Shown here: piece by piece, positions 3,647 to 40,535 of the stretch
Layout: each line of letters begins with the position of its first letter
How positions within the stretch are numbered: position 1 is the first letter of the stretch
The notes under the pieces: generated by a model
Seen by the model: only the letters and a program-made list of their open reading frames with translations
The model's database searches: none
What the model was told of the DNA's origin: nothing
Position numbers and translations under genes: made by a program
IMG/VR virus record: IMGVR_UViG_3300043122_000117
Span: 1 to 46,197 of that record
Reading direction: 5' to 3' (one strand)
DNA length: 46,197 nt
Source: a virus

Positions 3647-3676
3647 AATGACTTTTTACAAATTTATAAATAATAT

Positions 3677-4453
3677 CTATAAGCTATTCTTTGTTCTTAA
3701 ATAATCTTTTCGTTTTAATCTCAGCGAAATTATCAATATATCAGAATCACCATATTTATTAGTTACTTCTGGATTTTCAATATCATATACTTCAAATTCA
3801 TCACCTTTGTAAGTTAACGTAACTGTCCCATTTGCCCACAATACACGTAATCCAGAAAGAAAATCAAGTGTTTTTGAATACCCGGTTATTGTAAACTCGT
3901 TAAATTTCCTTCTTGAAACATATAAAGGAATATCGCCGTATGACTTTTCAACTCCATCTTCTGCTATCTCGTTTTCGTAATTAATTCCGTTTACTTCTAA
4001 ATATACATTATAATCGAATCCACTCAAATTCAACTCATAGTCGCCTATTAGCATATTGGTAGATTCTGCATGTATTTTTAAATAATCAGAAACAACAGAA
4101 GTCCAACAGAACACATCTGAATATATTTTTGTACCGTCATAAGTTATTTCAAGATAATAAAAGCCATCACTTTGCCCAGTAGTTGTTTCACCGTTAATTA
4201 TAATTCGGGAATACGGCGAACCTGCATCATTTGTTGTTGCTGTCTCGATACTGGCACTGCCTGTTTTAATTTGATTTCCACTATTGTCTAATAGCTTATA
4301 CGATGCCAAAGACACAGTAGCCGGAATTATTACTTGAACATCAGGTATATCATTTGTAATAAAATGATGCAATACCCGTTGATTTCCTGTATTATCAAAC
4401 TGTCTGTGTTCGATATCTGTGTAAAATCCTAATATGTTATAAGAATATATCAT
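3677..4453 (-). CDS. Putative distal tail protein
   Basis: The 258-residue protein is encoded immediately after the tape measure, with start and stop overlapping by ATGA. In siphoviruses this slot usually holds the distal tail (Dit) protein that joins the tube to the tip. The sequence is beta-rich, with no membrane segment. I see no diagnostic motif, so the function is inferred from gene order. Confidence 0.6.
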   Translation of the reverse strand: MIYSYNILGFYTDIEHRQFDNTGNQRVLHHFITNDIPDVQVIIPATVSLASYKLLDNSGNQIKTGSASIETATTNDAGSPYSRIIINGETTTGQSDGFYYLEITYDGTKIYSDVFCWTSVVSDYLKIHAESTNMLIGDYELNLSGFDYNVYLEVNGINYENEIAEDGVEKSYGDIPLYVSRRKFNEFTITGYSKTLDFLSGLRVLWANGTVTLTYKGDEFEVYDIENPEVTNKYGDSDILIISLRLKRKDYLRTKNSL

Positions 4454-7889: not shown

Positions 7890-8364
7890 AACCTAAATGT
7901 TTGCGAATAGCTTTCATCATTTCAGGAAATATCTTCTCTCTTATTATTCCTAAATTTTCGTCATCTATTCCATAAATATCTTTCCACTTTTCATCAAAAC
8001 TAGCTCCCTTTCCTTTTGGTTCAATAATAAACTCATCGCCGACTATTTCTGCTGTAAGCATATCGTGAACTAAAGTACCCTTTATAAAGAAGTCTGGCGT
8101 TCCAAACCCCTTCTCTGCAAAGTAAGGATTCCTGTCTAATTTCGACTTAAAAACAGCATATCCAACAGCTTGTCCTCTTGACTTAAAATAGTCGTCATCA
8201 AAATAAGTAGGTGTAATATTTTCGCCCTTACTTGTTTTACCCTTTAATAATTGAATTTTATTCATTTCAACTATTAAAGAACTATTTACTTCAAGCTCTT
8301 TTAATATTATATCCCAAATATTAAGAGAATTAACCCGTGATATTTGCTGTTCAATCTTATCCAT
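7882..8364 (-). CDS. Conserved-looking morphogenesis protein after the tail tube
   Basis: The 160-residue protein has an N-terminal helical region, a segment KSRGQAVGYAVFKSK, then GTPDFFIKGTLVHDM and a C-terminal helix. This layout (basic middle, then a TP-DFF-GTL-type beta segment) resembles small tail-completion or morphogenesis proteins of Bacteroidetes phages, but I cannot name the family securely. It lies between the tail tube gene and the chaperone frames and is translationally coupled to the latter. Confidence 0.6.
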   Translation of the reverse strand: MDKIEQQISRVNSLNIWDIILKELEVNSSLIVEMNKIQLLKGKTSKGENITPTYFDDDYFKSRGQAVGYAVFKSKLDRNPYFAEKGFGTPDFFIKGTLVHDMLTAEIVGDEFIIEPKGKGASFDEKWKDIYGIDDENLGIIREKIFPEMMKAIRKHLGYD

Positions 8365-25408: not shown

Positions 25409-25612
25409 TTAATTATCATACAACCAGTCTGGTGCATTATCAATTTTTCGTTTGTGCTTTATCTTTATTTCCTTCCAGTCTCGTTGTAATTTTTCTTTTA
25501 TTGCCTGCCTAATAAACTGATAAATGTTTACACCTTTTGATTTTATAATCTTCAAACTATTAGCTTGAATTTCTGTTATCATAACTTCCTGTCTTACTGT
25601 ATATTGTTTCAT
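25409..25612 (-). CDS. Ribbon-helix-helix-like small protein, leftward-array end copy
   Basis: The product (67 residues from the ATG at 25612) begins KQYTVRQEVMITEIQANSLK, then ...NIYQFIRQAIKEKLQRDW. This strand-helix-helix layout resembles CopG/Arc-type DNA-binding proteins. It is a close paralogue of the gene at 40332-40535; the first 66 bases and 36 bases upstream are identical. A longer frame to 25642 would lie partly in the array-end core and is not preferred. A DNA-binding role is inferred. Confidence 0.65.
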   Translation of the reverse strand: MKQYTVRQEVMITEIQANSLKIIKSKGVNIYQFIRQAIKEKLQRDWKEIKIKHKRKIDNAPDWLYDN

Positions 25613-25648
25613 TTTATCAGGATAGAAGGTATGGTTCCACATACGTTA
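25547..25648 (-). repeat. 102-bp exact repeat at the leftward-array end
   Basis: This stretch is identical to 40296-40397 on the opposite strand. Identity begins at the TAAC of the last array core and ends at GAAGATT in the RHH-like gene, then similarity drops to roughly three quarters. The abrupt left edge at the core fits a recombination boundary. Confidence 0.85.
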
Positions 25649-25909
25649 GCAATCAGTTTGCTGTTCACAAATGATGCCTCCGCAGTGTTTACATTTACTG
25701 CCATAAAACACAATATCGATGTGCTTGCAACAGCAAACCGCCACTTCGTTACACTCGTTATTGCTAACAAAGTGCATATTTAAAAGTTTTATTACGTCAT
25801 CAATGGCTTGATTGTATCCATAGTACTTTGCTAACTCTATGTCTCTTGCGTCTCCATCTGGTAGTTTACCAATGTAAATGCGTCTTAATCCTTCAATTTT
25901 TTTAATCAT
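25646..25909 (-). CDS. Modular small protein with C-terminal Cys-rich module, 87 residues
   Basis: The N-terminal part (about 45 residues) starts IKKIEGLRRIYIGKLPDG. At residue 48 the sequence reads HFVSNNE, where the GTTAGC core is encoded. The C-terminal module is Cys-rich (VCCCKH...CKHCGG...CEQQTDC), a likely zinc-binding fold. The end QTDC is shared with genes at 35409 and 35810. The stop is part of the downstream GCTAAC core. Confidence 0.65.
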   Translation of the reverse strand: MIKKIEGLRRIYIGKLPDGDARDIELAKYYGYNQAIDDVIKLLNMHFVSNNECNEVAVCCCKHIDIVFYGSKCKHCGGIICEQQTDC

Positions 25910-25961
25910 TATTTATATTTTAAATTCCACAAAACTTCAAAACATGCACAAACCGTTAGGC
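25763..25961 (-). repeat. Arm pair enclosing the N-terminal part of the 25646-25909 gene
   Basis: The upstream arm (25961-25935, AACGGTTTGTGCATGTTT) pairs with the downstream arm (25786-25763, ending GTTAGC). They match over GTGCAT and TTT, with the upstream arm carrying G where the other has T (G:T pair). Confidence 0.65.
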
Positions 25962-25974
25962 ACAATAAAAATTA

Positions 25975-26187
25975 CTACCTAACAGCCAACATTGCATCAG
26001 CAAACATATATCTTACAATGGCTTGATATTTCATAGCCCATTCAATTTGAACCAGTGGATCATCACTCCATTCAAGCCCGTACTTTTCGTTTATTAATGC
26101 CATTGTTTTTTCATCGTTAATGGTTGGCAATGTTGTATCTCTCATGCTCATTGCAATTTCGTCTCTTAATGTTTTTTCGTTTTTCAT
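25975..26187 (-). CDS. Hypothetical protein, 70 residues
   Basis: The protein starts KNEKTLRDEIAMSMRDTTLP and has an acidic helical body. It lies as a complete gene between the GTT core at 26213-26211 and the AACGG core at 25957-25953, unlike neighbours whose cores are intragenic. No family was recognised. Confidence 0.6.
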   Translation of the reverse strand: MKNEKTLRDEIAMSMRDTTLPTINDEKTMALINEKYGLEWSDDPLVQIEWAMKYQAIVRYMFADAMLAVR

Positions 26188-26206
26188 ATCCGTAATTTTT
26201 ACAGAT

Positions 26207-26320
26207 GTCTAACATTTTGTATATGACATTGTGTTAAGCATCTAAGTTAATATTTATGTTATTTAATCATTTGTTTTTTAATCAAGCGTAGCATTCAACG
26301 CCACATACAAGTTACCGTTG
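26207..26320 (-). repeat. Compact arm pair without a gene between arms
   Basis: The upstream arm (26320-26292, AACGGTAACTTGTATGTGG) pairs with the downstream arm (26239-26207, ending GTTAGAC). There are G:T pairs at three positions. The arms are about 50 bases apart, so this site has the size of a classical attC. The region 26188-26524 has no other convincing gene. Confidence 0.7.
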
Positions 26321-26427
26321 TATTTCATTGCCTCCTACCGTCGGCTATGGCTCCATGCCGCTAATTTTAAAACAGGAAATTTTAAAATCAGATTCCGACA
26401 TTCCCGCCATACCATGAAATACAACGG
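26315..26427 (-). other. Gene-less hairpin element, copy 2
   Basis: The 113-bp element is bounded by inverted CCGTTGTATTTCA (26315-26327) and TGAAATACAACGG (26415-26427). Inside it shares CTCCATG, TCAGATTC and GACATTCCCG with copy 1 at 27908-28088. The two internal arms can fold into one long hairpin. It replaces a coding C-terminal module. Confidence 0.6.
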
Positions 26428-26475
26428 CTCGTGTAAACTTGAAAAGGTGTATAAGTAAACCGGAGGCAACGCAAA

Positions 26476-26758
26476 CACAACAAAGTGTAAACGTAATTTA
26501 ACGCCTGTGGCTTTCTGTCTCTTTTCAACTTCCTGTATTGTTCCCATCCTTAAAAAATAAATTAGGCCTGTACAGAACTATCAATAACAATGTGGTTGCA
26601 ATTATGCTCGCAACTGCATTAATCCAATTGGGGGTTATGTCCCAGCCAAAAGCTACTTCGTAAAAGAATATTATTAAAAAGCCAATTATCCATCTCATAA
26701 CATTTATTTTTTAATTATTCCACAATTCAGAAACTCCGTTTACACGAGCCGTTAGCGG
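26476..26758 (-). repeat. Arm pair enclosing the 57-residue membrane gene
   Basis: The upstream arm (26758-26728, AACGGCTCGTGTAAACGG) pairs with the downstream arm (26499-26476, ending GTTGTG). Identity covers GTGTAAACG and TTT. An inverted copy of the upstream arm also precedes the gene-less element at 26421-26436. Confidence 0.7.
26525..26698 (-). CDS. Small membrane protein, 57 residues
   Basis: The frame encodes two hydrophobic segments (residues about 3-17 and 30-43) separated by FGWDITPNWINA, and ends in a polar tail. No family was recognised. It lies between arms of the same attC-like pair, so it would move as one cassette. The frame is complete and has an AT-rich leader before the ATG. 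Confidence 0.6.
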   Translation of the reverse strand: MRWIIGFLIIFFYEVAFGWDITPNWINAVASIIATTLLLIVLYRPNLFFKDGNNTGS

Positions 26759-26826
26759 TAAGCTGAAAAAATATAATTAGTTTTCTGCTTAACTTGTGGC
26801 TGCATCGCTTTTAACGAAACAGCCAA

Positions 26827-27182
26827 CCGCTAACAAAGTGCAAAAACAATAAAATTTATTACTGTAATCGCTTAATTTCGCCTTCGTAAAAGTAAATGCC
26901 GTTAATTTTGTATGCCTTTACTGTCCCGCCACCTTTCTTTCCTCCAAACCGTCCTTCACTTGTGTAAACTGCTGCGGTAATTATTCCGCTTGTTGTCTTT
27001 CTGTGCCTTTTCCTGCAAATTACATTCTGTCCGATACTGTATTTGTGTTTAAATACTTTCTGCATTTTAGCGGTGGCTACTTTCGTGGGTTCATAAACGT
27101 GTCTTACATATTCAGAACCGTAGTAATTACCTGTGTATTCCATATCCATAAATTTTAAAGATTCTTGCACAAACCGTTAGCG
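26827..27182 (-). repeat. Arm pair enclosing the SH3-like small gene
   Basis: The upstream arm (27182-27160, AACGGTTTGTGCAAG) pairs with the downstream arm (26847-26827, ending GTTAGCGG). The whole gene lies between them, and the stop at 26859 is just before the GTT core. Confidence 0.65.
26859..27149 (-). CDS. Hypothetical basic protein, 96 residues
   Basis: The product begins DMEYTGNYYGSEYVRHVYEP and contains CRKRHRKTTSGIITAAVYTS and a Gly/Lys-rich loop (FGGKKGGGTVKAYKING), which suggests a small SH3-like beta fold. The ATG at 27149 is preferred over one at 27170, which lies inside the arm repeat. No family was recognised. Confidence 0.6.
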   Translation of the reverse strand: MDMEYTGNYYGSEYVRHVYEPTKVATAKMQKVFKHKYSIGQNVICRKRHRKTTSGIITAAVYTSEGRFGGKKGGGTVKAYKINGIYFYEGEIKRLQ

Positions 27183-27188
27183 GTAATG

Positions 27189-27524
27189 CTATTCTACATT
27201 TATGGTAAGTGTAACAATACCGTAACCACAGGCAATTTTGCTTTGATATTCTAACTTTTTATTGTTGTCTGAATCTTCGTATAGTTTCTTTAATAATTGC
27301 TGTATAAGCTCATTCTTGGAAGCACTACCGCTAACATTTTGTAAAGGTAATGCCGCTGTAGCTTCGTGCGAACTGTCAGCCAACGCTCGTTCGGAATTAA
27401 CTAAGTCATTTAGTTTTTGTTCCAATTCTTTTTCTACTCTATCAAGTTCTTGGTCGTCTGCACAAATCCAATGTGTACAGGTTTCTTTAATAATCGTATG
27501 TACTAATTCTTTAACATTTGCCAT
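27189..27524 (-). CDS. Modular small protein, 111 residues
   Basis: The N-terminal half (helical, Glu/Leu-rich) runs to LQNVSGSAS, where the GTTAGC core is encoded in frame. The C-terminal half is KNELIQQLLKKLYEDSDNN... ending GIVTLTINVE. The 19 bases after the core are identical to those after the core in the unrelated 38239-38634 gene. The start context AGCGATGG recurs in other cassette genes. Confidence 0.65.
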   Translation of the reverse strand: MANVKELVHTIIKETCTHWICADDQELDRVEKELEQKLNDLVNSERALADSSHEATAALPLQNVSGSASKNELIQQLLKKLYEDSDNNKKLEYQSKIACGYGIVTLTINVE

Positions 27525-27610
27525 CGCTATAATTTTTGAAAGTTATTTACTCGTATCAACCGTGTGCCAGTTTGGGTGGCGGCACATACCCTTACAATTT
27601 ACCGTTAGCC
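27328..27610 (-). repeat. Arm pair enclosing the N-terminal part of the 27189-27524 gene
   Basis: The upstream arm (27610-27578, AACGGTAAATTGTAAGGG) pairs with the downstream arm (27358-27328, ending GTTAGCGG). They share TGTAA, GGTA and GCCGC. Confidence 0.7.
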
Positions 27611-27865
27611 ACAATTGGCTTTTAAATAAATGTCTACAACAGCTTCAGCATCATCCATTTCGTTAAATCCAATTTCCTGCATTTCTTTAGCAAAAGCCAA
27701 CAGTTCACTTCGTTGGCTAACAATATGCAAATCCAAATTTTTAACTTTGTTAGCATATAATTCCGCAAATTCTATCATGTATTCCCAGTTGTAAAAATGA
27801 CATTCCACAGGCCACTTCATACCCTTACTTTTGCTAAATTTTTGTAATTCATCTTTTGTGTTCAT
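27605..27865 (-). CDS. Modular small protein, 86 residues
   Basis: The N-terminal part is KDELQKFSKSKGMKWPVECH and the core is encoded at HIVSQRS (GTTAGC read as Val-Ser). The C-terminal part is acidic-helical and ends KANCG, with its stop in the GCTAACGG core of the next junction. No family was recognised. Confidence 0.6.
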   Translation of the reverse strand: MNTKDELQKFSKSKGMKWPVECHFYNWEYMIEFAELYANKVKNLDLHIVSQRSELLAFAKEMQEIGFNEMDDAEAVVDIYLKANCG

Positions 27866-27918
27866 AATATTAGTTTTTAAACGTTAAAAATCAGCACTTG
27901 CATTCGACCGTTATAATC
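27715..27918 (-). repeat. Arm pair enclosing the N-terminal part of the 27605-27865 gene
   Basis: The upstream arm (27918-27882, AACGGTCGAATGCAAGTG) pairs with the downstream arm (27745-27715, ending GTTAGCC). They share ATGCAA and ATTTTTAAC. The upstream arm is also the end of the gene-less element copy 1. Confidence 0.75.
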
Positions 27919-28088
27919 AACTACCTCCGCTGCGCTCCGGTCATTTCTCCATGTCACTAAATTTAGACGAAACGCCACCATAATAAACTAATTATCAATC
28001 ACATTAAAATCAGGTATGTCTAAATAACTTATCTAATAATGTCTAAATTCAGATTCTGACATTCCCGAAATACCGTTGATTATAACGG
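27908..28088 (-). other. Gene-less hairpin element, copy 1
   Basis: The 181-bp element is bounded by a perfect 14-bp inverted repeat (CCGTTATAATCAAC at 27908-27921 and its complement at 28075-28088). Inside, GACATTCCCG and TCAGATTC, and CTCCATG-CACTAAATTTAGAC, are shared with copy 2. They can form a hairpin of about 20 bp. No open frame of interest is present. Confidence 0.6.
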
Positions 28089-28138
28089 TGCCGTGCCAAC
28101 TTAAAACTGCTTTCTACCTGACCGCTACGGTAGCAAAT

Positions 28139-28423
28139 CATAACAAAGTGCAAACGTAATTGCAGGGCAAGCATAATTGAGACGTTTTAAGTTACCTGCT
28201 TGTTCCCAGCCTTTAACTGAAATAATTCAGCATTTAAGATAATTACCTTTTCTTCGGCATTATACACTCGGTCATCAAGTAAATAGATACTTATTCTGCA
28301 ACTCTTTAATTGCTCCTCTAAGTCAGTAATTCTTTGTTTTAGTTTTTTATTAAACATGATAAAATTATTTTAGTTAAATTCTTACACAATCAGGCAACTA
28401 CGTTTGCACGGCACCGTTGGCGG
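28139..28423 (-). repeat. Arm pair enclosing the 56-residue coiled-coil gene
   Basis: The upstream arm (28423-28391, AACGGTGCCGTGCAAACG) pairs with the downstream arm (28167-28139, ending GTTATG). GTGCAAACGTA is shared. An inverted copy of the upstream arm occurs at 28084-28100, before the gene-less element. Confidence 0.75.
28187..28357 (-). CDS. Small coiled-coil protein, 56 residues
   Basis: The frame runs from the ATG at 28357 to TAA at 28187. The product begins FNKKLKQRITDLEEQLKSC and is a single helix rich in Leu, Glu and Lys with heptad-like spacing. It lies whole between the arms of one pair. No family was recognised. Confidence 0.55.
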   Translation of the reverse strand: MFNKKLKQRITDLEEQLKSCRISIYLLDDRVYNAEEKVIILNAELFQLKAGNKQVT

Positions 28424-28428
28424 TAATA

Positions 28429-28692
28429 TTAAAAATGAACATCATCATAAAACCATTCCATAAAGAACTCTAATTCAGGTCTTGTATCTTCTGGTAATTT
28501 ATTCCAAATAAAAAAAGCCCTATCACTTGTGAAAGATTTTGTTTTAAATTCTTCAAATTCTTCTTTTGATAATTTTAGCCTTGTTTTTTCATAAGCAATT
28601 AGCGGAACATTAAAAAAAATACTACCGCCAACATCGGCTATATGTAATGCCTTATCTGTGCTTAATTCATTGTTTTGTGTTTCTTTGCTCAT
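28429..28692 (-). CDS. Modular small protein, 87 residues
   Basis: The N-terminal part is SKETQNNELSTDKALHIAD. The core GTTGGC follows in frame (DVGGS, Val-Gly). The C-terminal part (KLSKEEFEEFKTKS..., DVHF end) is acidic and helical. No family was recognised. Confidence 0.6.
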   Translation of the reverse strand: MSKETQNNELSTDKALHIADVGGSIFFNVPLIAYEKTRLKLSKEEFEEFKTKSFTSDRAFFIWNKLPEDTRPELEFFMEWFYDDVHF

Positions 28693-28758
28693 TTTATTTT
28701 TAATTTAAAAGTTAGTGTATGTTTATACGGCACTACACATAGCCGTGATACGTTAGGC
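28626..28758 (-). repeat. Arm pair enclosing the N-terminal part of the 28429-28692 gene
   Basis: The upstream arm (28758-28725, AACGTATCACGGCTATGTG) pairs with the downstream arm (28655-28626, ending GTTGGCGG). CGGCTAT, TGTA and TGCC are shared, with G:T pairs at the differing positions. Confidence 0.8.
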
Positions 28759-28868
28759 ACAAGCGTAGGAAATGCAGTACATTTAATTAAGTTTCGTGCA
28801 GTTATTTAATTTATTTGTTTCAATCTAAGTCAGTTTTAAACGTTTGTTATACTAAACGTTGTAGTGCA

Positions 28869-29234
28869 TTAGCCCACGCACACATTGCCAGTAATTTCAT
28901 ATGAAAATCCTGCAAGTTCATCCGAAAGCAAATCGCCACTACTTTTATTTTGCTTATAGCTATTATCAAGCAACCAAGCCCCTATTTTAGAATCCCAAAA
29001 CACTTGCATCTTACTTTGAACTAAACCTTCGTCTGTTTCAGTCCAGTCGCTAAGTATATCCCCTTCGTATATTTCAATGCCGTGTTTATCGCACAATCCA
29101 GTAAACTGCTGTACGGTTACATGGTCAAGGCTAATAAGTTTATTTAGGTTCTTAAATCTCTGTATGTCCGCCCACAACATCATTTTTTTGCTTTCTTTAT
29201 TCCAAGCTCTAAATTTAAGTCGGTTATTTCCCAT
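28869..29234 (-). CDS. YopX-family protein
   Basis: The 121-residue protein has the YopX pattern: KFRAWNKESKKMM at the N-terminus, then the near-invariant QFTGLCDKHGIEIYEGDIL in the middle, and a C-terminal ITGNVCVG. YopX proteins are common in phages of Firmicutes and Bacteroidetes; their function is unknown. The whole gene lies between copies of GTTGTAGTGC (28858-28867) and its complement (29246-29255), as one cassette. Confidence 0.85.
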   Translation of the reverse strand: MGNNRLKFRAWNKESKKMMLWADIQRFKNLNKLISLDHVTVQQFTGLCDKHGIEIYEGDILSDWTETDEGLVQSKMQVFWDSKIGAWLLDNSYKQNKSSGDLLSDELAGFSYEITGNVCVG

Positions 29235-29245
29235 CGCTTAAAAAC

Positions 29246-29285
29246 GCACTACAACAATTTATATAAGTAATAGCCGTTGTAGTGC
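29246..29285 (-). repeat. Compact palindromic core at the start of the leftward array
   Basis: GCACTACAAC (29246-29255) and GTTGTAGTGC (29276-29285) form a perfect 10-bp inverted repeat separated by 20 bases. A third copy at 28858-28867 closes the YopX cassette. This is the shortest arm pair in the arrays. Confidence 0.7.
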
Positions 29286-34955: not shown

Positions 34956-35330
34956 ATGAAGAATATTACACCACTTACTTACAAGGAATTAAAAGAAGTT
35001 TTAATCAGCCACATTGAATATATAGATGTTTTTTTATTGCATGGTTTTGATTTGGGCGATAATTGTTGGCATGGCAATATCTACGCTGAAATAAAACTAA
35101 AAGACGGTTCGTTAATATTATGCGAAAATTTATCTATTAGCTTTAGCGTATATTCCGATAATATTTCTGAAATAGAAATTTACGGTTTTGAAAATATTGA
35201 ACAAATTACTAAAGATGGCGAAAATATAAAAGAATTTGAATATTCTAAACTTTTTCCAGAAAACAATGAAACTGAAGAGTCTAAATTACTATTAATTAAA
35301 CATCTTGAAAGAATTGGTATTTCTTTTTAA
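34956..35330 (+). CDS. Hypothetical protein, 124 residues
   Basis: An acidic protein starting KNITPLTYKELKEVLISHIE with helical ends and a beta-rich middle. No family was recognised. Its stop lies inside the first array core (TTTTAACGG), so it marks the start of the rightward array. Confidence 0.65.
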   Translation: MKNITPLTYKELKEVLISHIEYIDVFLLHGFDLGDNCWHGNIYAEIKLKDGSLILCENLSISFSVYSDNISEIEIYGFENIEQITKDGENIKEFEYSKLFPENNETEESKLLLIKHLERIGISF

Positions 35331-35606
35331 CGGTTGGTGTTTGTGCTGACCGCAGATTAATAACCGATAAAATTAGATTCGAGATATAAACTTTTAAATT
35401 TTAATAGCGTGGTAAAAACAGTTAATGAAATCGAACAACTTGAAAGAATATTAGATAAAGAATCTATAACTTTCAAAGAACTTAAAGAAGGTATTTTGAA
35501 ATACAAAGCTAAAAGTGAGTATCAACAAGCTGCAATAATTATCATCCGAGGTGTTTTGGAGAAACGTTTGCACGAGAACAGCGGTTTGCATAAACACATT
35601 GTTAGC
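35326..35606 (+). repeat. Arm pair 1 of the rightward array
   Basis: The upstream arm (35326-35355, AACGGTTGGTGTTTGTGC) pairs with the downstream arm (35579-35606, ending GTTAGC). TGTTT, TGC and ACCGC are shared, with G in the upstream arm opposite T. The intervening part is the leader and N-terminal half of the 35409 gene. Confidence 0.75.
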
Positions 35607-35735
35607 AATAACGAGGTACTAGTGGCGGTTGGTTGCCATACTTGCAAACATAATCCACACGCTCCTTTTGTTCCCGAAATTTGCGATGAATGTAACCCTG
35701 GAACATTTAATAAATGGCAGCAAACTGATTGCTAA
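35409..35735 (+). CDS. Modular small protein with C-terminal Cys/His module, 108 residues
   Basis: The start is GTG in the context AGCGTGG, like other cassette genes. The N-terminal half is helical (NEIEQLERILDKESITFKEL). The core is encoded at HIVSNNE, and the C-terminal module has GCHTCKHNPH and ICDECN, then WQQTDC. Paired Cys suggest zinc binding. The stop is part of the GCTAACGG core. Confidence 0.65.
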   Translation: MVKTVNEIEQLERILDKESITFKELKEGILKYKAKSEYQQAAIIIIRGVLEKRLHENSGLHKHIVSNNEVLVAVGCHTCKHNPHAPFVPEICDECNPGTFNKWQQTDC

Positions 35736-35986
35736 CGGTTGTGGTATGCTTTGAACATGGAAACCACAACGAAATTTCAAACGAGAACTAAAACAAAATT
35801 ATACTAAAAATGGGAAAAGATGAAATTGATGAAATTATGGAAAATTTTAAACGAGCCTGCAAAGAAGCTGCAATTTCGTTTAATAGACTGGCTGATAGAT
35901 TAAATGCACAACACAAAAGGAAAAGAAAAACCACTAAAGCTGATACTATAGAAAAAAGAAAGGTTTTTAATATGCCTATTGTTAGC
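35731..35986 (+). repeat. Arm pair 2
   Basis: The upstream arm (35731-35760, GCTAACGGTTGTGGTATGC) pairs weakly with the downstream arm (35961-35986, ending GTTAGC). GGTATGC corresponds to GGCATAT on the complement. It is the least clear pair, though the cores are exact. Confidence 0.5.
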
Positions 35987-36100
35987 AACAACAAAGTGGC
36001 GGTTTGCGAGATTGAAGGATGCAACAGAGAGGTATTGAGTGACAGTACTATGTGTCCTCACCATTTTGCAGTTTCGCTGGATTCGCAAACTGATTGCTAA
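35810..36100 (+). CDS. Modular small protein with C-terminal Cys/His module, 96 residues
   Basis: The N-terminal part is helical and basic (AQHKRKRKTTKADT). The core is at PIVSNNK; the C-terminal module has CEIEGC and MCPHHF, then SQTDC. A zinc-binding fold is plausible. The last residues QTDC are shared with the modules at 25646 and 35409. The stop is part of the next core. Confidence 0.65.
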   Translation: MGKDEIDEIMENFKRACKEAAISFNRLADRLNAQHKRKRKTTKADTIEKRKVFNMPIVSNNKVAVCEIEGCNREVLSDSTMCPHHFAVSLDSQTDC

Positions 36101-36298
36101 CGGTAAATTGTAAGTTGTCGGAATTTTACGGATTTGAAATACAAAAAAAATAACAAAATGAAATTAGAAATAGTAAACTCAGGAACAGAAGAATTTCCAT
36201 TTTATCAGATAATGGAAGGAAATGTCGAATTATGTGCTTGCGATAATATTAATAAAGCAGAACGCATAGTAAAATTATGCAATTTACAAAATGTTAGC
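36096..36298 (+). repeat. Arm pair 3
   Basis: The upstream arm (36096-36130, GCTAACGGTAAATTGTAAG) pairs with the downstream arm (36269-36298, ending GTTAGC). TTGTAA and AATTTTAC are shared. The spaced G:T pair is present. Confidence 0.75.
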
Positions 36299-36457
36299 GA
36301 GTCGGTGCTTAATCAAATACAGATACAAGCTGATATATTTACCGAACGTGAAGCAAAAGCTTATGAAAGTGCTGCACACAGAGAAGCTTACGAAAATAGT
36401 ATAAAAGCAAATACAGTTAACGACATTATTTTAATGATAAGAAGCAATGAACGCTAA
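36158..36457 (+). CDS. Modular small protein, 99 residues
   Basis: The ATG at 36158 is preferred to 36134, because it follows the leader word ATTTGAAATAC and AT-rich sequence shared with other cassettes. The N-terminal part starts KLEIVNSGTEEFPFYQIMEG. The core is at LQNVSES and the C-terminal helix ends MIRSNER. The end SNER is shared with the 37868-38158 gene. Confidence 0.65.
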   Translation: MKLEIVNSGTEEFPFYQIMEGNVELCACDNINKAERIVKLCNLQNVSESVLNQIQIQADIFTEREAKAYESAAHREAYENSIKANTVNDIILMIRSNER

Positions 36458-36728
36458 CGGTTGGTGTTTGTGTAGTGCGTGAATAACCTACCGTATTTTA
36501 CACGAGAATAATAATTACAATAACTTAAATAGTGAACGGATATGAATTACGAAAAAGAATACAAAGAGTTTAGTAAATGGTGGGAAGAATTAACTGATAA
36601 AAATCCAAATTGGAAAACACTTGAAAGATTAGCTGCAAAAGACGCATGGATGGAAGCAACCAAAAGAGCAGAAGTGAACGGTGCTGAAACGAACCGCGAA
36701 CAAGCATTACATAAACACTTTGTTAGCG
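36452..36728 (+). repeat. Arm pair 4
   Basis: The upstream arm (36452-36482, AACGGTTGGTGTTTGTGTAG) pairs with the downstream arm (36701-36728, ending GTTAGC). TGTTT, TGTA and TGC are shared; G:T pairs occur at two or three sites. Confidence 0.8.
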
Positions 36729-36823
36729 TTGCGGTTTGCGGATGGTGTGGTAATAAATTATGTGATAGCCAGAAGTTTAATAACACTTGCTTCAAATGTG
36801 GCAAAAGCCCATATAGTAAGTAA
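36542..36823 (+). CDS. Modular small protein with zinc-ribbon-like C-terminus, 93 residues
   Basis: The N-terminal half (NYEKEYKEFSKWWEELTDKN, AWMEATKRAEV) resembles common phage small-protein helical domains. The core is at KHFVSVAV. The C-terminal module has VCGWCGNKLC and CFKCGK, a zinc-ribbon pattern. No family was named. Confidence 0.65.
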   Translation: MNYEKEYKEFSKWWEELTDKNPNWKTLERLAAKDAWMEATKRAEVNGAETNREQALHKHFVSVAVCGWCGNKLCDSQKFNNTCFKCGKSPYSK

Positions 36824-36830
36824 ACTGAAC

Positions 36831-36957
36831 ACTAACGGTAACTTGTTTGTTGTCGTTGCGTAAAAGTTGAACGTAATTATCAAATTTATAAACACTTACA
36901 TAAATGAACAAAGAATCGAAAACCACAGAACAGCAATGCAATAAACAAATTGTTAAC
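36831..36957 (+). repeat. Arm pair 5
   Basis: The upstream arm (36831-36860, AACGGTAACTTGTTTGTTG) pairs with the downstream arm (36931-36957, ending GTTAAC). TTGTTT and TTG and TTGC are shared. The arms are only 70 bases apart. Confidence 0.75.
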
Positions 36958-37113
36958 ACCCGTTTTGAATGCAAATGCGGATGTAACGATTTTTACTTTA
37001 TTGGAACGATACCAGAAATAAACACAGACGAAGGAACACAAGAAAAAGATGCCTTATATGGGTGCTTTGATTGCGGAGACAACTATTACCTATCTGAGAT
37101 AAATGGGTGTTAA
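36904..37113 (+). CDS. Modular small protein with Cys-rich module, 69 residues
   Basis: The N-terminal part is very short (NKESKTTEQQCNKQ). The core GTTAAC is read as Val-Asn (IVNTR). The C-terminal module has FECKCGCNDFYF and GCFDCGD, likely metal-binding. The end GC is shared with the array core sequence (GGTGTTAACGG). Confidence 0.6.
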   Translation: MNKESKTTEQQCNKQIVNTRFECKCGCNDFYFIGTIPEINTDEGTQEKDALYGCFDCGDNYYLSEINGC

Positions 37114-37526
37114 CGGTTTGCGTATGTTGCGTTGCGATTTATGAACCTAAATTTGATACGAAAACGACAGTAATAATTAAATATTTTAAGCGATGGATTT
37201 TAAAGGAACAAAAGGTAAATGGAATTTGATATATGATGATGATCATTATGTAGTTGAAACAGAAAATGAAAACATTTGTGCTTGCATAATAATGGATAAC
37301 GAAATGGAACAGCAAGTTGCAAATGGTAGATTAATTTCGTCAGCCCCTGAATTATTAGAAGCACTAATTAACATACGAAACAATGTTAACCCAGATGAAT
37401 TAAATACACCCGAAATTGATTTGCTGATTAATAAAGCGTTGGGAAAAAATATTTAATTATGGGAAATACGCAGAAAGTTAAATCGAAGCACCGACACAGC
37501 AATGCAATATTACGCTTTGTTACCAC
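37108..37526 (+). repeat. Arm pair 6 (spans two genes)
   Basis: The upstream arm (37108-37136, AACGGTTTGCGTATGTTGCG) pairs with the downstream arm (37498-37526, ending GTTACC). GCGTA, TTGC and TTGC are shared. The interval includes the whole 37193-37456 gene and the start of the next. Confidence 0.75.
37193..37456 (+). CDS. APELLEAL-type phage protein, 87 residues
   Basis: The protein begins DFKGTKGKWNLIYDDDHYVV and has the conserved C-terminal segment LISSAPELLEALINIRNNV, a pattern common in phage accessory proteins of unknown function. The start context AGCGATGG is that of other cassette genes. No core lies inside it, unlike most neighbours. Confidence 0.7.
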   Translation: MDFKGTKGKWNLIYDDDHYVVETENENICACIIMDNEMEQQVANGRLISSAPELLEALINIRNNVNPDELNTPEIDLLINKALGKNI

Positions 37527-37797
37527 CCGTTTTTCTTTAAAAGCTGGGGACGTGGTAATAGTGCGGTGGAACAAATACAGAGTGGTAGCAACCGTTGAAG
37601 GCTTCTATTGTTATGGGATAAAGATCAAAAATATGCCTGTATTTCCATTTAATGCAGGGCGTTTCTACGGTTGCGGATATAATAGCGAACCAGTTTATAC
37701 ACTTAGAAAAGATTGGCATTACATACCTGCTAAAATTTGTGAGTGGTGGCGGTTGAAGTTACCATCAAAACTTGGAGCGAGAATCTTCGGTTTTTAA
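37459..37797 (+). CDS. Modular small protein, 112 residues
   Basis: The protein starts GNTQKVKSKHRHSNAILRF. The core GTTACC is read in frame (RFVTTRF). The C-terminal part is beta-rich, with GDVVIVRWNKYRVVATVEGF and a basic aromatic tail. No family was recognised. The ATG follows the previous stop by 2 bases. Confidence 0.6.
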   Translation: MGNTQKVKSKHRHSNAILRFVTTRFSLKAGDVVIVRWNKYRVVATVEGFYCYGIKIKNMPVFPFNAGRFYGCGYNSEPVYTLRKDWHYIPAKICEWWRLKLPSKLGARIFGF

Positions 37798-37804
37798 ATG
37801 GGTG

Positions 37805-38004
37805 GGTAACGATAACTTGTAAGTTGTCGGTTTTTTAACGGATTTGAAACACTAAAAACAACATAAAATGATAAAAGCAAAAGATATTCAAAGAATTATT
37901 GCTGCTAATGAAACGGCACAAGAGGCAAGCATTGAGATAAAAGAAATGGTTGACAATTACGTAGAACAGCAGTTAAAAAAATGCAATTTACAAAGTGTTA
38001 GCGG
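37805..38004 (+). repeat. Arm pair 7
   Basis: The upstream arm (37805-37840, AACGATAACTTGTAAGTTG) pairs with the downstream arm (37971-38004, ending GTTAGCGG). TTGTAA, TTG and TTTTTTAAC are shared. Confidence 0.75.
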
Positions 38005-38158
38005 TTCGTTGCCAACAAAGGACGAAGCAGTTAACAAGGGCTACCAAATAGCATCGGACGGTGGATACAATTACAGGCGTGTGTTAAAAGATGGGAAGGA
38101 TGACATTTACTTTTCCGGGTGGATGGATTGCTTCGATTGGGTTAGCAATGAACGCTAA
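37868..38158 (+). CDS. Modular small protein, 96 residues
   Basis: The N-terminal helical part starts IKAKDIQRIIAANETAQEAS. The core is at LQSVSGS. The C-terminal part (GYQIASDGGYNYRRVLKDGK, then YFSGWMDCFDWVSNER) is beta-rich. The last residues SNER and stop are in the core region shared with the 36158 gene. Confidence 0.65.
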   Translation: MIKAKDIQRIIAANETAQEASIEIKEMVDNYVEQQLKKCNLQSVSGSLPTKDEAVNKGYQIASDGGYNYRRVLKDGKDDIYFSGWMDCFDWVSNER

Positions 38159-38510
38159 CGGGCGTGCGGTATGTTGGGTTGCCTGTTGAAATACCCACAA
38201 AAGTTAATGCGAGTAAATAACCTATAAAATATAGAGCGATGGAAAGACCAGAGCACATAAATGAAATGCTTTTAGAAATGGAACAAAGCAAAAACTACAA
38301 AGAGTTGATAGTTAAAAATCCATTGATGTACCACAACGGCAGACAACATCCATGCAATGTTGAACGAATGTTTTTAGGATTAAAAAATGCGGGGTATCAT
38401 CGTAACATGATTTGTATATACACAAAAAGTGGATATGAATGTTTTCATAAAAGTGCGCTGGATAAAGGCATACACGGGCTGGGGCAATCCAATATACCGC
38501 GTGTTAGCGG
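38153..38510 (+). repeat. Arm pair 8 (strongest long pair)
   Basis: The upstream arm (38153-38185, AACGGGCGTGCGGTATGTTG) pairs with the downstream arm (38479-38510, ending GTTAGCGG). GCGGTAT, TTGG and TTGCC are shared, with G:T pairs at the two differing sites. Confidence 0.85.
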
Positions 38511-38634
38511 TAGTGCTTCCCGCAAAAAACGACAGCCATGTTATTTTTGCGGAGTAGAATCTACTGGCTATTCAATGATTAAGCGCAACGGAATTGAAGA
38601 GAACTTACCTACTTGTAGCGACCATGCTGTTTAG
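38239..38634 (+). CDS. Modular small protein with Cys-rich end, 131 residues
   Basis: The start context is AGCGATGG. The N-terminal ~85 residues begin ERPEHINEMLLEMEQSKN. The core is at PRVSGSAS, and the C-terminal module has PCYFCGVES and TCSDHA. The sequence TGTTAGCGGTAGTGCTTCC after the core is identical to that in the 27189 gene. Confidence 0.65.
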   Translation: MERPEHINEMLLEMEQSKNYKELIVKNPLMYHNGRQHPCNVERMFLGLKNAGYHRNMICIYTKSGYECFHKSALDKGIHGLGQSNIPRVSGSASRKKRQPCYFCGVESTGYSMIKRNGIEENLPTCSDHAV

Positions 38635-38643
38635 ATAGCATTA

Positions 38644-38773
38644 CCGCTAACGTTGGTTGCAAGTTGTCGTAACTTGCCTGAATACGTATAAATTGAATTT
38701 GAAACACTAAAATACAATATTATGAAACAGTTGATTAAAAAATTAAGTTATGCAATTTGCATATTGTTAACGT
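38644..38773 (+). repeat. Arm pair 9
   Basis: The upstream arm (38644-38680, AACGTTGGTTGCAAGTTG) pairs with the downstream arm (38741-38773, ending GTTAAC). TGCAA, TTG and TAACTT are shared. Confidence 0.75.
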
Positions 38774-38916
38774 GCGTTATTTTATTATGCCAAAGGACAC
38801 ATGAAAAGGTTAGTAATGATTGGATCTTGATTGACAGCACTAAAATTATTCAAATTGCAGAAACAGATAGTGTTACTTATTATAGAATTATTCCAAAGAC
38901 TCCTAATGCACGTTAA
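38722..38916 (+). CDS. Small membrane-anchored protein, 64 residues
   Basis: A basic N-terminus (KQLIKKLSYA) precedes a hydrophobic segment (ICILLTCVILLCQ) and a polar tail (TKIIQIAETDSVTYYRIIP). The GTTAAC core is read in another frame here (LLTC), the one clear exception. It may be a short membrane or lipid-anchored peptide. Confidence 0.6.
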   Translation: MKQLIKKLSYAICILLTCVILLCQRTHEKVSNDWILIDSTKIIQIAETDSVTYYRIIPKTPNAR

Positions 38917-39882
38917 CGGGCTGGCGGTATGAAATGTGCCGTCAAATATGCACAAACGATGATTAAAAGTACAAACGTAAAAAAAGAAAAAAAGGGAGGG
39001 ATTTTTTATGATTCTTAGAAGATTAGGGAATAAATCAAAGATTGCAGCCGAAATACAAAAACATTTCCCGGCTCACAAGATTTATATTGAACCCTTCTTT
39101 GGCGCTGGAGGCATGTTTTTTAATAAACACAAAGCGCAGCACAATTTTTTAAATGACTTGGATTCTGATGTTTTTAACTTGTTTCAGGTTATTAGCAACA
39201 AAAAGGATGAATTTGTTGAATTGTTTAATATTATGCCAATACACAATGATTTATTTGATTATTGGATGCAAAACAAAGAGGAAGAGCCTGTAAAACGTGC
39301 AATCCGTTTTATCATGCTTTCAAATTTTAGTTTATACGGAAAAATGGACACGTTGCGATTTGGTTGCGTCACACCCAAAGAACAAGTTTTTAAATACCTT
39401 GATAAAACATTTGAATACATTAAAAACGCACAGTTTACGAACTGTGATTTTAGAAAAATGTTTTCGAGTATTTCGTTGCAACCAGAAGATTTAAACCAAA
39501 CGCTTATTTATTGCGACCCACCATATTTAAAAACAACTGATAATTATAACGGTAATTCTTTTACTGAGGCAGATAGTAAAGACCTGTTTGATTTTTTGCA
39601 AGAATCGGGCTGTAAATGGGCAATGAGCGAATTTGACCACCCATTTATATTAGAACAGGCAAAAGAAAGAAAATTGAACGTTACACAAATTGGTGAACGG
39701 CAAAGTTTAAAGAAAAGGAGTATTGAAATTTTAGTAACTAACTATAAGAACCATGCTACTTTATTCGATTTCTAAATGGTTTTGTAAAAACCAAAGCGGG
39801 CGGGCTTTTTTCTTTTTTGGATTAACCCACGAACGCTTATTAAATGAACGGACTAAGGCATTTTTTATACCGCATGTTATGC
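38910..39882 (+). repeat. Arm pair 10 (spans the methyltransferase gene)
   Basis: The upstream arm (38910-38940, AACGGGCTGGCGGTATG) pairs with the downstream arm (39857-39882, ending GTTATGC). GCGGTAT and TGCC are shared. The interval holds the whole methyltransferase gene, so a full gene moves with it. Confidence 0.75.
39008..39775 (+). CDS. D12-class DNA adenine methyltransferase
   Basis: The 255-residue protein has the SAM-binding motif YIEPFFGAGGMFF near residue 27, ending in the FxGxG-like turn. Its catalytic motif is YCDPPY near residue 168, followed by SFTEADSKDLFDFL. This is the Dam/D12 order of motifs (FxGxG, then DPPY), N6-adenine methylation. It probably protects phage DNA from restriction. 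The ATG follows a purine-rich stretch (AAAAGGGAGGG), an unusual Shine-Dalgarno-like site. It is the only enzyme in the array. Confidence 0.88.
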   Translation: MILRRLGNKSKIAAEIQKHFPAHKIYIEPFFGAGGMFFNKHKAQHNFLNDLDSDVFNLFQVISNKKDEFVELFNIMPIHNDLFDYWMQNKEEEPVKRAIRFIMLSNFSLYGKMDTLRFGCVTPKEQVFKYLDKTFEYIKNAQFTNCDFRKMFSSISLQPEDLNQTLIYCDPPYLKTTDNYNGNSFTEADSKDLFDFLQESGCKWAMSEFDHPFILEQAKERKLNVTQIGERQSLKKRSIEILVTNYKNHATLFDF

Positions 39883-39979
39883 TTTTCGTTGCGCCTGACG
39901 GAAAGTTCAAATCAAGGTATAAAATTTCAGGCGCAATGAAGCATAACGGTTTGTATAAGATTTGAAGGGCAAACCACTA
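39776..39979 (+). other. Remnant sequence between methyltransferase and array end
   Basis: No convincing gene was found. It holds a short hairpin AAAGC-GGGCGG-GCTTT with a T run (about 39790-39808), a likely terminator for the methyltransferase. It also holds the GTTATGC core at 39876, the GCATAACGG core at 39941 and an inverted pair (GCGCC near 39890 with GGCGC near 39930). Confidence 0.4.
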
Positions 39980-40039
39980 ATGATAATTAAGAGAGCAAAA
40001 GGCTATATTGCCCTTTTAATTTTATACTTTGTTATAGCC
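39941..40039 (+). repeat. Arm pair 11, compact attC-like site
   Basis: The upstream arm (39941-39975, GCATAACGGTTTGTATAAG) pairs with the downstream arm (40008-40039, ending GTTATAG). Identity is high (GTATAA, GAAGGGCAA on complement). Only about 30 bases separate the arms. Confidence 0.85.
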
Positions 40040-40045
40040 AGTTAA
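39980..40045 (+). CDS. Possible 21-residue membrane peptide
   Basis: The frame MIIKRAKGYIALLILYFVIAS is one hydrophobic segment. It starts in the loop of arm pair 11 and crosses the downstream arm, so its 3' half doubles as the recombination arm. It may be chance, but the GTT is in frame as in other cassettes. Confidence 0.3.
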   Translation: MIIKRAKGYIALLILYFVIAS

Positions 40046-40057
40046 TTTATTAGTACT

Positions 40058-40288
40058 ATGAAAATTGAAATGCAGAAAAGAAAGGCGGGAATATATATAC
40101 AATGGTTTATTATAGAAGGACTGAGCGGAGGAAAAAGAACTACTTACTCGATATACGCAAACCAAGCAAAAAACTATGCACAAGCTGTTAGGTTTTGGAA
40201 TAAAACGTGGGGTGGGCGTAATGGAAACAAAGCTTTTATATTGAGAAATGCCGAGCCTTATGACCAAAGTTTATGTTTAGCCTGTTAA
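40058..40288 (+). CDS. Hypothetical protein, 76 residues
   Basis: The basic protein begins KIEMQKRKAGIYIQWFIIEG and has GGKRTTYSIYANQAKNYAQA then a Trp-rich segment. It lies as a complete gene between GTTATAGCC (40031) and GGCTATAAC (40291). These are perfect inverted 9-bp copies, so it is a whole-gene cassette. No family was recognised. Confidence 0.6.
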   Translation: MKIEMQKRKAGIYIQWFIIEGLSGGKRTTYSIYANQAKNYAQAVRFWNKTWGGRNGNKAFILRNAEPYDQSLCLAC

Positions 40289-40295
40289 TTGGCTA

Positions 40296-40397
40296 TAACG
40301 TATGTGGAACCATACCTTCTATCCTGATAAAATGAAACAATATACAGTAAGACAGGAAGTTATGATAACAGAAATTCAAGCTAATAGTTTGAAGATT
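40296..40397 (+). repeat. 102-bp exact repeat at the rightward-array end
   Basis: The stretch is identical to 25547-25648 on the minus strand, including the core TAACGTATGTGG, the leader and the first third of the RHH-like gene. Beyond 40397 the copies diverge. Confidence 0.85.
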
Positions 40398-40535
40398 CTA
40401 AAGTCAAAAGGAGTAAACATTTCTCAGTTTATTAGGCAATCAATAAAAGAAAAAATAGAAAGAGATTGGAATGATATTAAAATAAAGCACAAACGGAATA
40501 TTGAGAATGCGCCTGATTGGCTGTACGATGATTAA
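40332..40535 (+). CDS. Ribbon-helix-helix-like small protein, rightward-array end copy
   Basis: The product is 67 residues, KQYTVRQEVMITEIQANSLK, then ...NISQFIRQSIKEKIERDW, with the RHH-like pattern. It is the paralogue of the 25409-25612 gene, which is followed by the ATPase gene. Here a terminator follows. Because both copies adjoin the array end, a role at that end (binding, or regulation) is a fair inference. Confidence 0.65.
   Translation: MKQYTVRQEVMITEIQANSLKILKSKGVNISQFIRQSIKEKIERDWNDIKIKHKRNIENAPDWLYDD

Follow-up and report, generated by a model that had tools for sequence, protein, structure and literature searches.

Two orphan arrays of integron-like cassettes in a Bacteroidota phage genome, and a XerA-like recombinase clade found beside such arrays in related phages

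How do long rows of small genes framed by inverted arms come to stand in a phage genome without an integron integrase, and what could move them? We addressed this question for IMG/VR record IMGVR_UViG_3300043122_000117, the whole 46,197-nt stretch of which is referred to herein as the window. The record is complete, carries a direct repeat of 127 nt at its termini, and represents a siphovirus-like Bacteroidota phage whose terminase is nearest, among named phages, to those of Bacteroides phages, Flavobacterium phage 11b and Polaribacter phages P12002L/S. Megablast in phages and single-protein searches of IMG/VR with its Erf-like protein and RecA-like ATPase retrieved no relatives, and an Rfam search of the window gave no match. 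A first-pass annotation had described eleven arm pairs on the plus strand and nine on the minus strand; the same counts of modules running from a GTT core to an AAC core were found herein, in two arrays:

35329..40297, plus strand: array 1, eleven AAC-to-AAC cassettes, defined by R and L arm pairing and a chain scan
AAC cores of array 1 (plus): 35329, 35734, 36099, 36456, 36834, 37112, 37808, 38157, 38649, 38915, 39945, 40297
GTT positions of array 1 (plus): 35601, 35981, 36293, 36722, 36952, 37519, 37997, 38503, 38766, 39876, 40031
25647..29278, minus strand: array 2, nine paired GTT..AAC modules, defined by arm pairing and sequence
AAC cores of array 2 (minus): 29278, 28860, 28754, 28418, 27912, 27606, 27178, 26753, 26319, 25957, 25647
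GTT positions of array 2 (minus): 29255, 28632, 28144, 27721, 27335, 26834, 26481, 26213, 25768

Within array 2, the stretch 28860-28754 has no GTT partner. Both arrays were found in pieces by the automatic chain scan, with scores of 38 and 35; shuffled 46-kb sequences reached a maximum of 11, but with a simpler scan than that used on the window. The octamer GYTAACGG occurs 11 times in the window against 1.46 expected. An ungapped crude scan, which missed bulged stems, was replaced.

The units of the window are best read as bounded by AAC, a delimitation that goes beyond the first-pass annotation, in the order AAC, GG(T) spacer, L'', leader, gene, L', GTT, R', rest of the gene, R'', AAC, with GTT-R' usually lying within an open reading frame and the stop codon often being the TAA of TAAC at the unit end. 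The placement of the gene varies, in that it may stand entirely before GTT, entirely after GTT or across it, as exemplified by the first two of the following cargo genes:

26859..27170, minus strand: 103-aa cassette gene of unknown function, wholly in AAC..GTT between L'' and L'; no Pfam match
28869..29234, minus strand: YopX-family protein cassette gene, wholly inside GTT..AAC (PF09643, E 1.4e-11)
39008..39775, plus strand: D12-class adenine DNA methyltransferase cassette gene (PF02086, E 6.5e-23; phrog_56)

A Pfam scan of ten cassette proteins returned the D12 methyltransferase, YopX and one weak zinc-finger match, and nothing for the others.

The annotation had further proposed that the arms follow the R''-L''...L'-R' layout of integron attC sites, and this was borne out by permutation. 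The pairing of R' with R'' across GTT..AAC had a cognate mean of 10.2 versus 4.3 off the diagonal, and that of L'' with L' across AAC..GTT a cognate mean of 10.8 versus 5.1, each value being reached in 0 of 20,000 permutations. Because the sites in the window were picked manually while looking at R pairing, the R test is to some extent circular; L pairing played hardly any part in choosing the cores, so that the L test is hardly affected. Both arm types thus demonstrably pair with their cognates, and the imperfect inverted arms R''-L''-L'-R' of an attC-type site are present in the window, as in these examples:

36456..36722, plus strand: L''-L' pair, AACGGTTGGTGTTTGTGTAGTGC ... GCATTACATAAACACTTTGTT; L score 13 versus the off-diagonal mean of 5.1
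38503..38649, plus strand: R'-R'' stem, GTTAGCGGTAGTGCT / GCATTACCGCTAAC, with a G.T mismatch at pair 8; a near-copy stands at 27335-27178 (minus)
35601..35734, plus strand: SNNEV-family R'-R'' module, GTTAGCAATAACGA... / GCAAACTGATTGCTAAC, recognized from sequence

When scored across a GTT..AAC module, the L arms fell to background (5.6). This bears on a reading of the modules as transposase-mobilized, MITE-like elements with terminal inverted repeats, for which it can be said that R'..R'' modules recur with the same ends and different contents. L arms that pair within AAC..GTT and not across the module (10.8 vs 5.6), arrays that run head-to-tail with a fixed end, and the absence of target duplications at the junctions read leave that reading barely tenable.

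Further copies of the SNNEV family lie at 35981-36099 (plus) and 25768-25647 (minus), and exact matches to its R'' were obtained in five IMG/VR contigs and one Bacteroidales MAG locus. Its arms are conserved at 35601 and 35981 (plus) and 25768 (minus) of the window and in loci L005, L006, L007 and L009; the R' GTTAGCAATAACGAAGTGGCGGTTTGC (or variants) and the R'' GCAAACTGATTGCTAAC form near-identical DNA across several otherwise different phages, and the flanking protein parts differ. Locus L009 (Bacteroidales MAG UBA5536) carries at 3389-4060 an array of the window kind within what seems to be an integrated virus that encodes a packaging-type ATPase. IMG/VR contained no exact copy of the general motif TAACGGTTTGYGTATGTNGCG, and three of the four matches to GCAAACTGATTGCTAACGG in cellular genomes were attributable to chance. 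Open reading frames that cross GTT mostly read it as a codon (37/49 in related arrays, among 155 related cassettes), a bias that arises in part because GTTAG/GTTAA yields TAG/TAA in one other frame. Because of this codon reading, and because the SNNEV C-part is shared, domain shuffling at GTT was considered; it was set aside as the main function, the isolate junctions described below lying at AAC, where whole genes move, although GTT junctions do occur.

No tyrosine recombinase was found in the window by a PF00589 search, in agreement with the first-pass annotation, and no serine recombinase was found either. What the window does have is a common end to its arrays:

40297..40535, plus strand: common end of array 1, AAC followed by GTATGTGGAACC..., with a 77-aa gene (40302-40535)
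25409..25647, minus strand: common end of array 2, AAC followed by GTATGTGGAACC... as in array 1, with a 77-aa gene (25409-25642)

The two ends align with 104/105 identical nucleotides from AAC on and 16/60 upstream, and the genes of the plus-strand array are directed towards the array end. Similarly, both arrays of another phage (L144) finish in a common sequence that starts at AAC (37265 and 29239, as at 40297 and 25647 of the window), and a recombinase was detected in neither phage. An attI-type site beside an integrase gene is accordingly absent from the window, which has only this common end.

Searching with an R'' motif of the window led to two phages in which a short tyrosine recombinase is encoded near the array. 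A profile built from this recombinase together with those of phages Freya and Ingeline gave 80 IMG/VR loci. A chain score above 25 was observed in 41 of the 59 recombinase loci scanned and in none of 70 terminase-selected loci; as the two scans cover different genome regions, the latter controls the scoring but not the phage type. The arrays of the inspected loci stop 29-91 nt upstream of the recombinase gene, nearly always with AAC followed by TAnnATATAT and with a variable left side. A primary site of attI type beside the integrase gene is thus met in the relatives, by this conserved anchor and by an insertion at the anchor in Freya_6, whereas the array end sequence of the window is unlike the anchor. 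The first-pass annotation had foreseen neither a XerA-like recombinase at the array end behind a conserved anchor nor cassette genes that point towards it.

In a quick tree, the array-associated recombinases, including those of Freya, Ingeline and locus L145, grouped in one clade (99% SH-aLRT), to which neither the other chromosomal relatives nor true IntI (separation 100%) belonged; one divergent array-associated enzyme, L014, fell outside it. All the array recombinases tested were below every NCBIfam cut-off. Their best profile was that of XerA (NF040815; 129-196 bits, all below the 220-bit cut-off), and the integron integrase model TIGR02249 was not met (92-163 bits for the relatives vs a cut-off of 265). 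From the catalytic R to HxxR, the array enzymes have 84-87 residues and true IntI has 131. Among 20 chromosomal homologues (43-50% identical), no array was found by scan, and one of them, L145, has an array when read by eye; the homologues were dropped as a clean negative set, as L145 carries an array with introns. On the reverse strand of L145 (G109:C1:248600-257000), copies of one group II intron interrupt the array, with 5' junctions at 6524 and 4355 and 3' junctions at 6968, 4670 and 2501. Both introns with resolved 5' ends were inserted between GT and T of the GTT core, which by analogy resembles the attC-targeting group II introns of integrons.

These comparisons bear on whether the arrays might be ordinary integron attC arrays (CALINs) moved by a true host IntI, the phage merely borrowing host cassettes. 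True IntI genes do occur in Bacteroidota, exceeding the TIGR02249 cut-off in six of ten tested genomes (chosen for a XerA-like match), and a site of P12002L works with IntI1 in Escherichia coli (PMC9892861). The cores, however, are mostly GTTAGC/GCTAAC, and the classical GTTRRRY fits only one of the 20 window cores (26213, by direct reading) and 16 of the 155 cores in related arrays, so that the departure from the consensus remarked on in the first-pass annotation was upheld. Moreover, a crude scan found no evident cassette array of this kind beside the true IntI of G007, G012, G061, G163, G299 and G300, a different recombinase clade stands at the anchored array end, and 257 Gb of cellular genomes contained the exact SNNEV R'' in a single related locus (one arm searched). 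We thus regard service by a host IntI as improbable.

Do such arrays actually move? The first-pass annotation had taken an absence of rearrangement at the cores in related phages as what would refute its cassette reading; in fact, relatives gain and lose whole cassettes, exchanged exactly at AAC cores. Freya_1 to Freya_10 are plaque-purified isolates of Polaribacter phages with genomes of 44.0-48.9 kb, called potentially temperate, and the words "cassette" and "variants" are absent from the text that describes them (PMC8776804). In the seven of ten isolates compared (F1, F2, F5, F6, F8 and F9 against the reference F10), only 0-4 SNPs per 42,985 nt were found outside the array, and the array, which fills the interval from the last early gene to the integrase gene, was different in each. 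All six variant junctions were exactly at AAC. F1, F2, F5 and F9 have deletions that join a cassette AAC to the fixed anchor AAC followed by ACCCCTATAAC before the integrase gene (the fixed AAC there reading AAC followed by ACCCCTATAACAACAATAAG); F8 lost one internal cassette from AAC to AAC with the anchor untouched, and F6 has a 472-nt cassette, absent from F10, inserted at the anchor. In Freya, the cassette genes run in the same direction as the integrase gene, upstream of which the array lies.

In Danklef, where the integrase is truncated, the array is nearly constant, and three of five isolates (Danklef_2/3/4) lack a 781-nt methylase cassette from AAC to AAC. Danklef_5 (L029, about 7970-8040) has lost the N-terminus of the integrase and the anchor, and a duplicated cassette start (AACGTGCGATTGTAAGG...) is fused to the gene. 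A 1,169-nt cassette, beginning at AAC and ending at AACGT, is common to Freya_10 and Danklef_5 with 99.6% identity at different array positions. Junctions at GTT occur as well, since two block edges of the Freya/Danklef comparison are located at this core or immediately next to it. The window relatives P12002L and P12002S, whose two longest common blocks are 99.6-100% identical, are distinguished by cassettes, mostly with boundaries at AAC cores and with a single junction that falls within L''; both arrays of P12002L finish in the same end sequence, and no recombinase matching that of Freya was found in P12002L (P12002S was not included in this search). In the IMG/VR pair L067/L068, whose recombinases are identical, the junctions were likewise at AAC. 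Gain and loss exactly at the core, as in integrons, was thus observed in relatives only; because no second isolate of the window phage is known, its own arrays have never been seen moving.

These junctions also bear on whether the recombinase might be a lysogeny integrase, with an attP beside its gene that accumulated DNA in tandem through successive integration events, in the manner of tandem islands. The anchor does lie just upstream of the integrase gene, a frequent place for attP, and the potentially temperate nature ascribed to Freya would suit such a history. On the other hand, the units are single small genes without an integrase of their own, the cassette-specific complementarity of R and L is not predicted by tandem integration, and the internal loss in F8 leaves the anchor untouched. 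We consider this reading unlikely, although it cannot be dismissed.

To see which strand might fold, we turned to the mismatches within the stems. In 186 R stems of related arrays, pairs 1-6 were Watson-Crick in 88-99%, and pair 8 was G.T in 74% and A.C in 0%. At other positions, 52 G.T mismatches were observed versus 12 A.C (p 5e-7, a value that is too small because the cassettes are related). The score gave both mismatch types equal weight. In the window, pair 8 was G.T in 10/20, and the other mismatches (8 vs 4) decide nothing. This bias of G.T over A.C favours folding of the gene-sense strand and does not separate single-stranded DNA from RNA. The folding check proposed in the first-pass annotation gave a mixed result: with single-strand DNA folding, the compact site 29278-29255 was better than its shuffles (z -4.1), and the other two of three tested sites were not clearly so (z -0.8 to -1.8), for which reason folding energy alone was not used as evidence.

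As the same bias suits RNA, the arms might instead form RNA hairpins that serve as terminators or regulators between small phage genes and are reshuffled by general phage recombination (ERF/RecT), and the window does encode an Erf-like annealing protein and a NinB-like mediator. The Freya and Danklef junctions, however, share only AAC or TAAC; an overlap of 3-4 nt is too short for annealing, and the ERF-driven annealing suggested in the first-pass annotation is accordingly not supported. Furthermore, the junctions recur at cores in unrelated phages, and the anchor beside the recombinase would be left unexplained. We hold this explanation to be very improbable.

We consider it highly probable that both arrays of the window are orphan members of an integron-like system found in Bacteroidota phages, with cassettes joined by a tyrosine recombinase. 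In the mechanism we propose, each unit would consist of a single small gene and its leader between two AAC cores; pairing of R'' with R' and of L'' with L' would allow a single strand to fold into an attC-like hairpin with an R stem, an unpaired spacer, an L stem and a large loop. A tyrosine recombinase would then cut at the GTT/AAC core and join cassettes to each other or to the fixed anchor at the array end, the putative enzyme in relatives being that of the distinct XerA-like clade encoded directly behind the anchor. The window phage, in which no such enzyme was detected, would probably be served in trans by that of a co-infecting phage, a prophage or the host. That the XerA-like enzyme does the joining is an inference, as no recombination assay links it to the junctions; the folded single strand as substrate, circular intermediates and the probable service in trans are likewise inferred. 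Several observations speak against this mechanism, namely that the Danklef and P12002L/S differences arise with a truncated or no detected enzyme, that L014 falls outside the clade, that the G.T bias is also expected for an RNA hairpin, that the window end differs from the anchor, and that one L'' junction and two GTT-side breaks exist. The observation of the first-pass annotation is nevertheless confirmed as real, and its interpretation is supported.

More broadly, we favour, with less assurance, the existence of a second, phage-centred cassette system parallel to integrons, in which a XerA-like enzyme rather than IntI captures and shuffles single-gene cassettes at an anchor via folded sites of the gene-sense strand, and in which orphan arrays, common to unrelated Bacteroidota viruses, are served in trans. 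With mobile and chromosomal integrons, the phage system shares arrays of promoter-poor single-gene cassettes, sites of the presumably folded type R''-spacer-L''..L'-R' with a GTT/AAC core, and a fixed attI-like site beside a tyrosine recombinase gene at which insertion occurs. It differs from them in its XerA-like recombinase without the IntI spacing, in genes that point towards the recombinase (cassette genes leading away from the integrase being a feature not met), in an R stem of about 12 bp with a conserved G.T at pair 8, in cores that rarely fit GTTRRRY, and in AAC..GTT stretches of median 110 nt, up to several hundred, that may hold coding sequence. As IntI and the GTTRRRY core were tested and not met, we do not file the system as an integron, although it works like one.

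In reverse integrons (e.g., that of Treponema denticola), the orientation of integrase and cassettes also differs from the usual arrangement; they share this unusual orientation with the phage system but use an IntI-type integrase, unlike its enzyme below every NCBIfam cut-off. Archaeal XerA and XerC/D provide the best profile match of the array recombinases, all of which remain below the XerA cut-off. The role of Xer is to resolve chromosome dimers at dif, and no cassette array goes with it.

Phage CALINs, P12002L among them, are known already (Qi et al. 2023, PMC9892861), and P12002L carries arrays of the window type by our scan. That paper reports predicted attC sites together with an IntI1 assay in which one P12002L site recombined with attI1, and, as here, lytic phages whose cassette sites have no accompanying integrase gene; because the tested site lies between methyltransferase genes, it is likely one of the sites we scanned. 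The passages considered describe no dedicated recombinase, anchor, extended R pairing or natural turnover among isolates. In the open-access literature searched, neither the recombinase clade nor the anchor nor the isolate-level turnover had been described, although a subscription-journal paper or preprint may have been missed.

If the proposed system holds true, folded-site cassette capture would not be exclusive to IntI or to bacteria, and phages would own a version of it with which they swap small accessory genes, methyltransferases being frequent cargo, within a few plaque generations. The arrangement of many unknown small phage genes would thereby gain a reason. Since Freya and its host are cultured, direct tests of the mechanism, of which strand is used and of what the recombinase does are possible. 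The system also bears on the origin of integrons from Xer-type recombinases.
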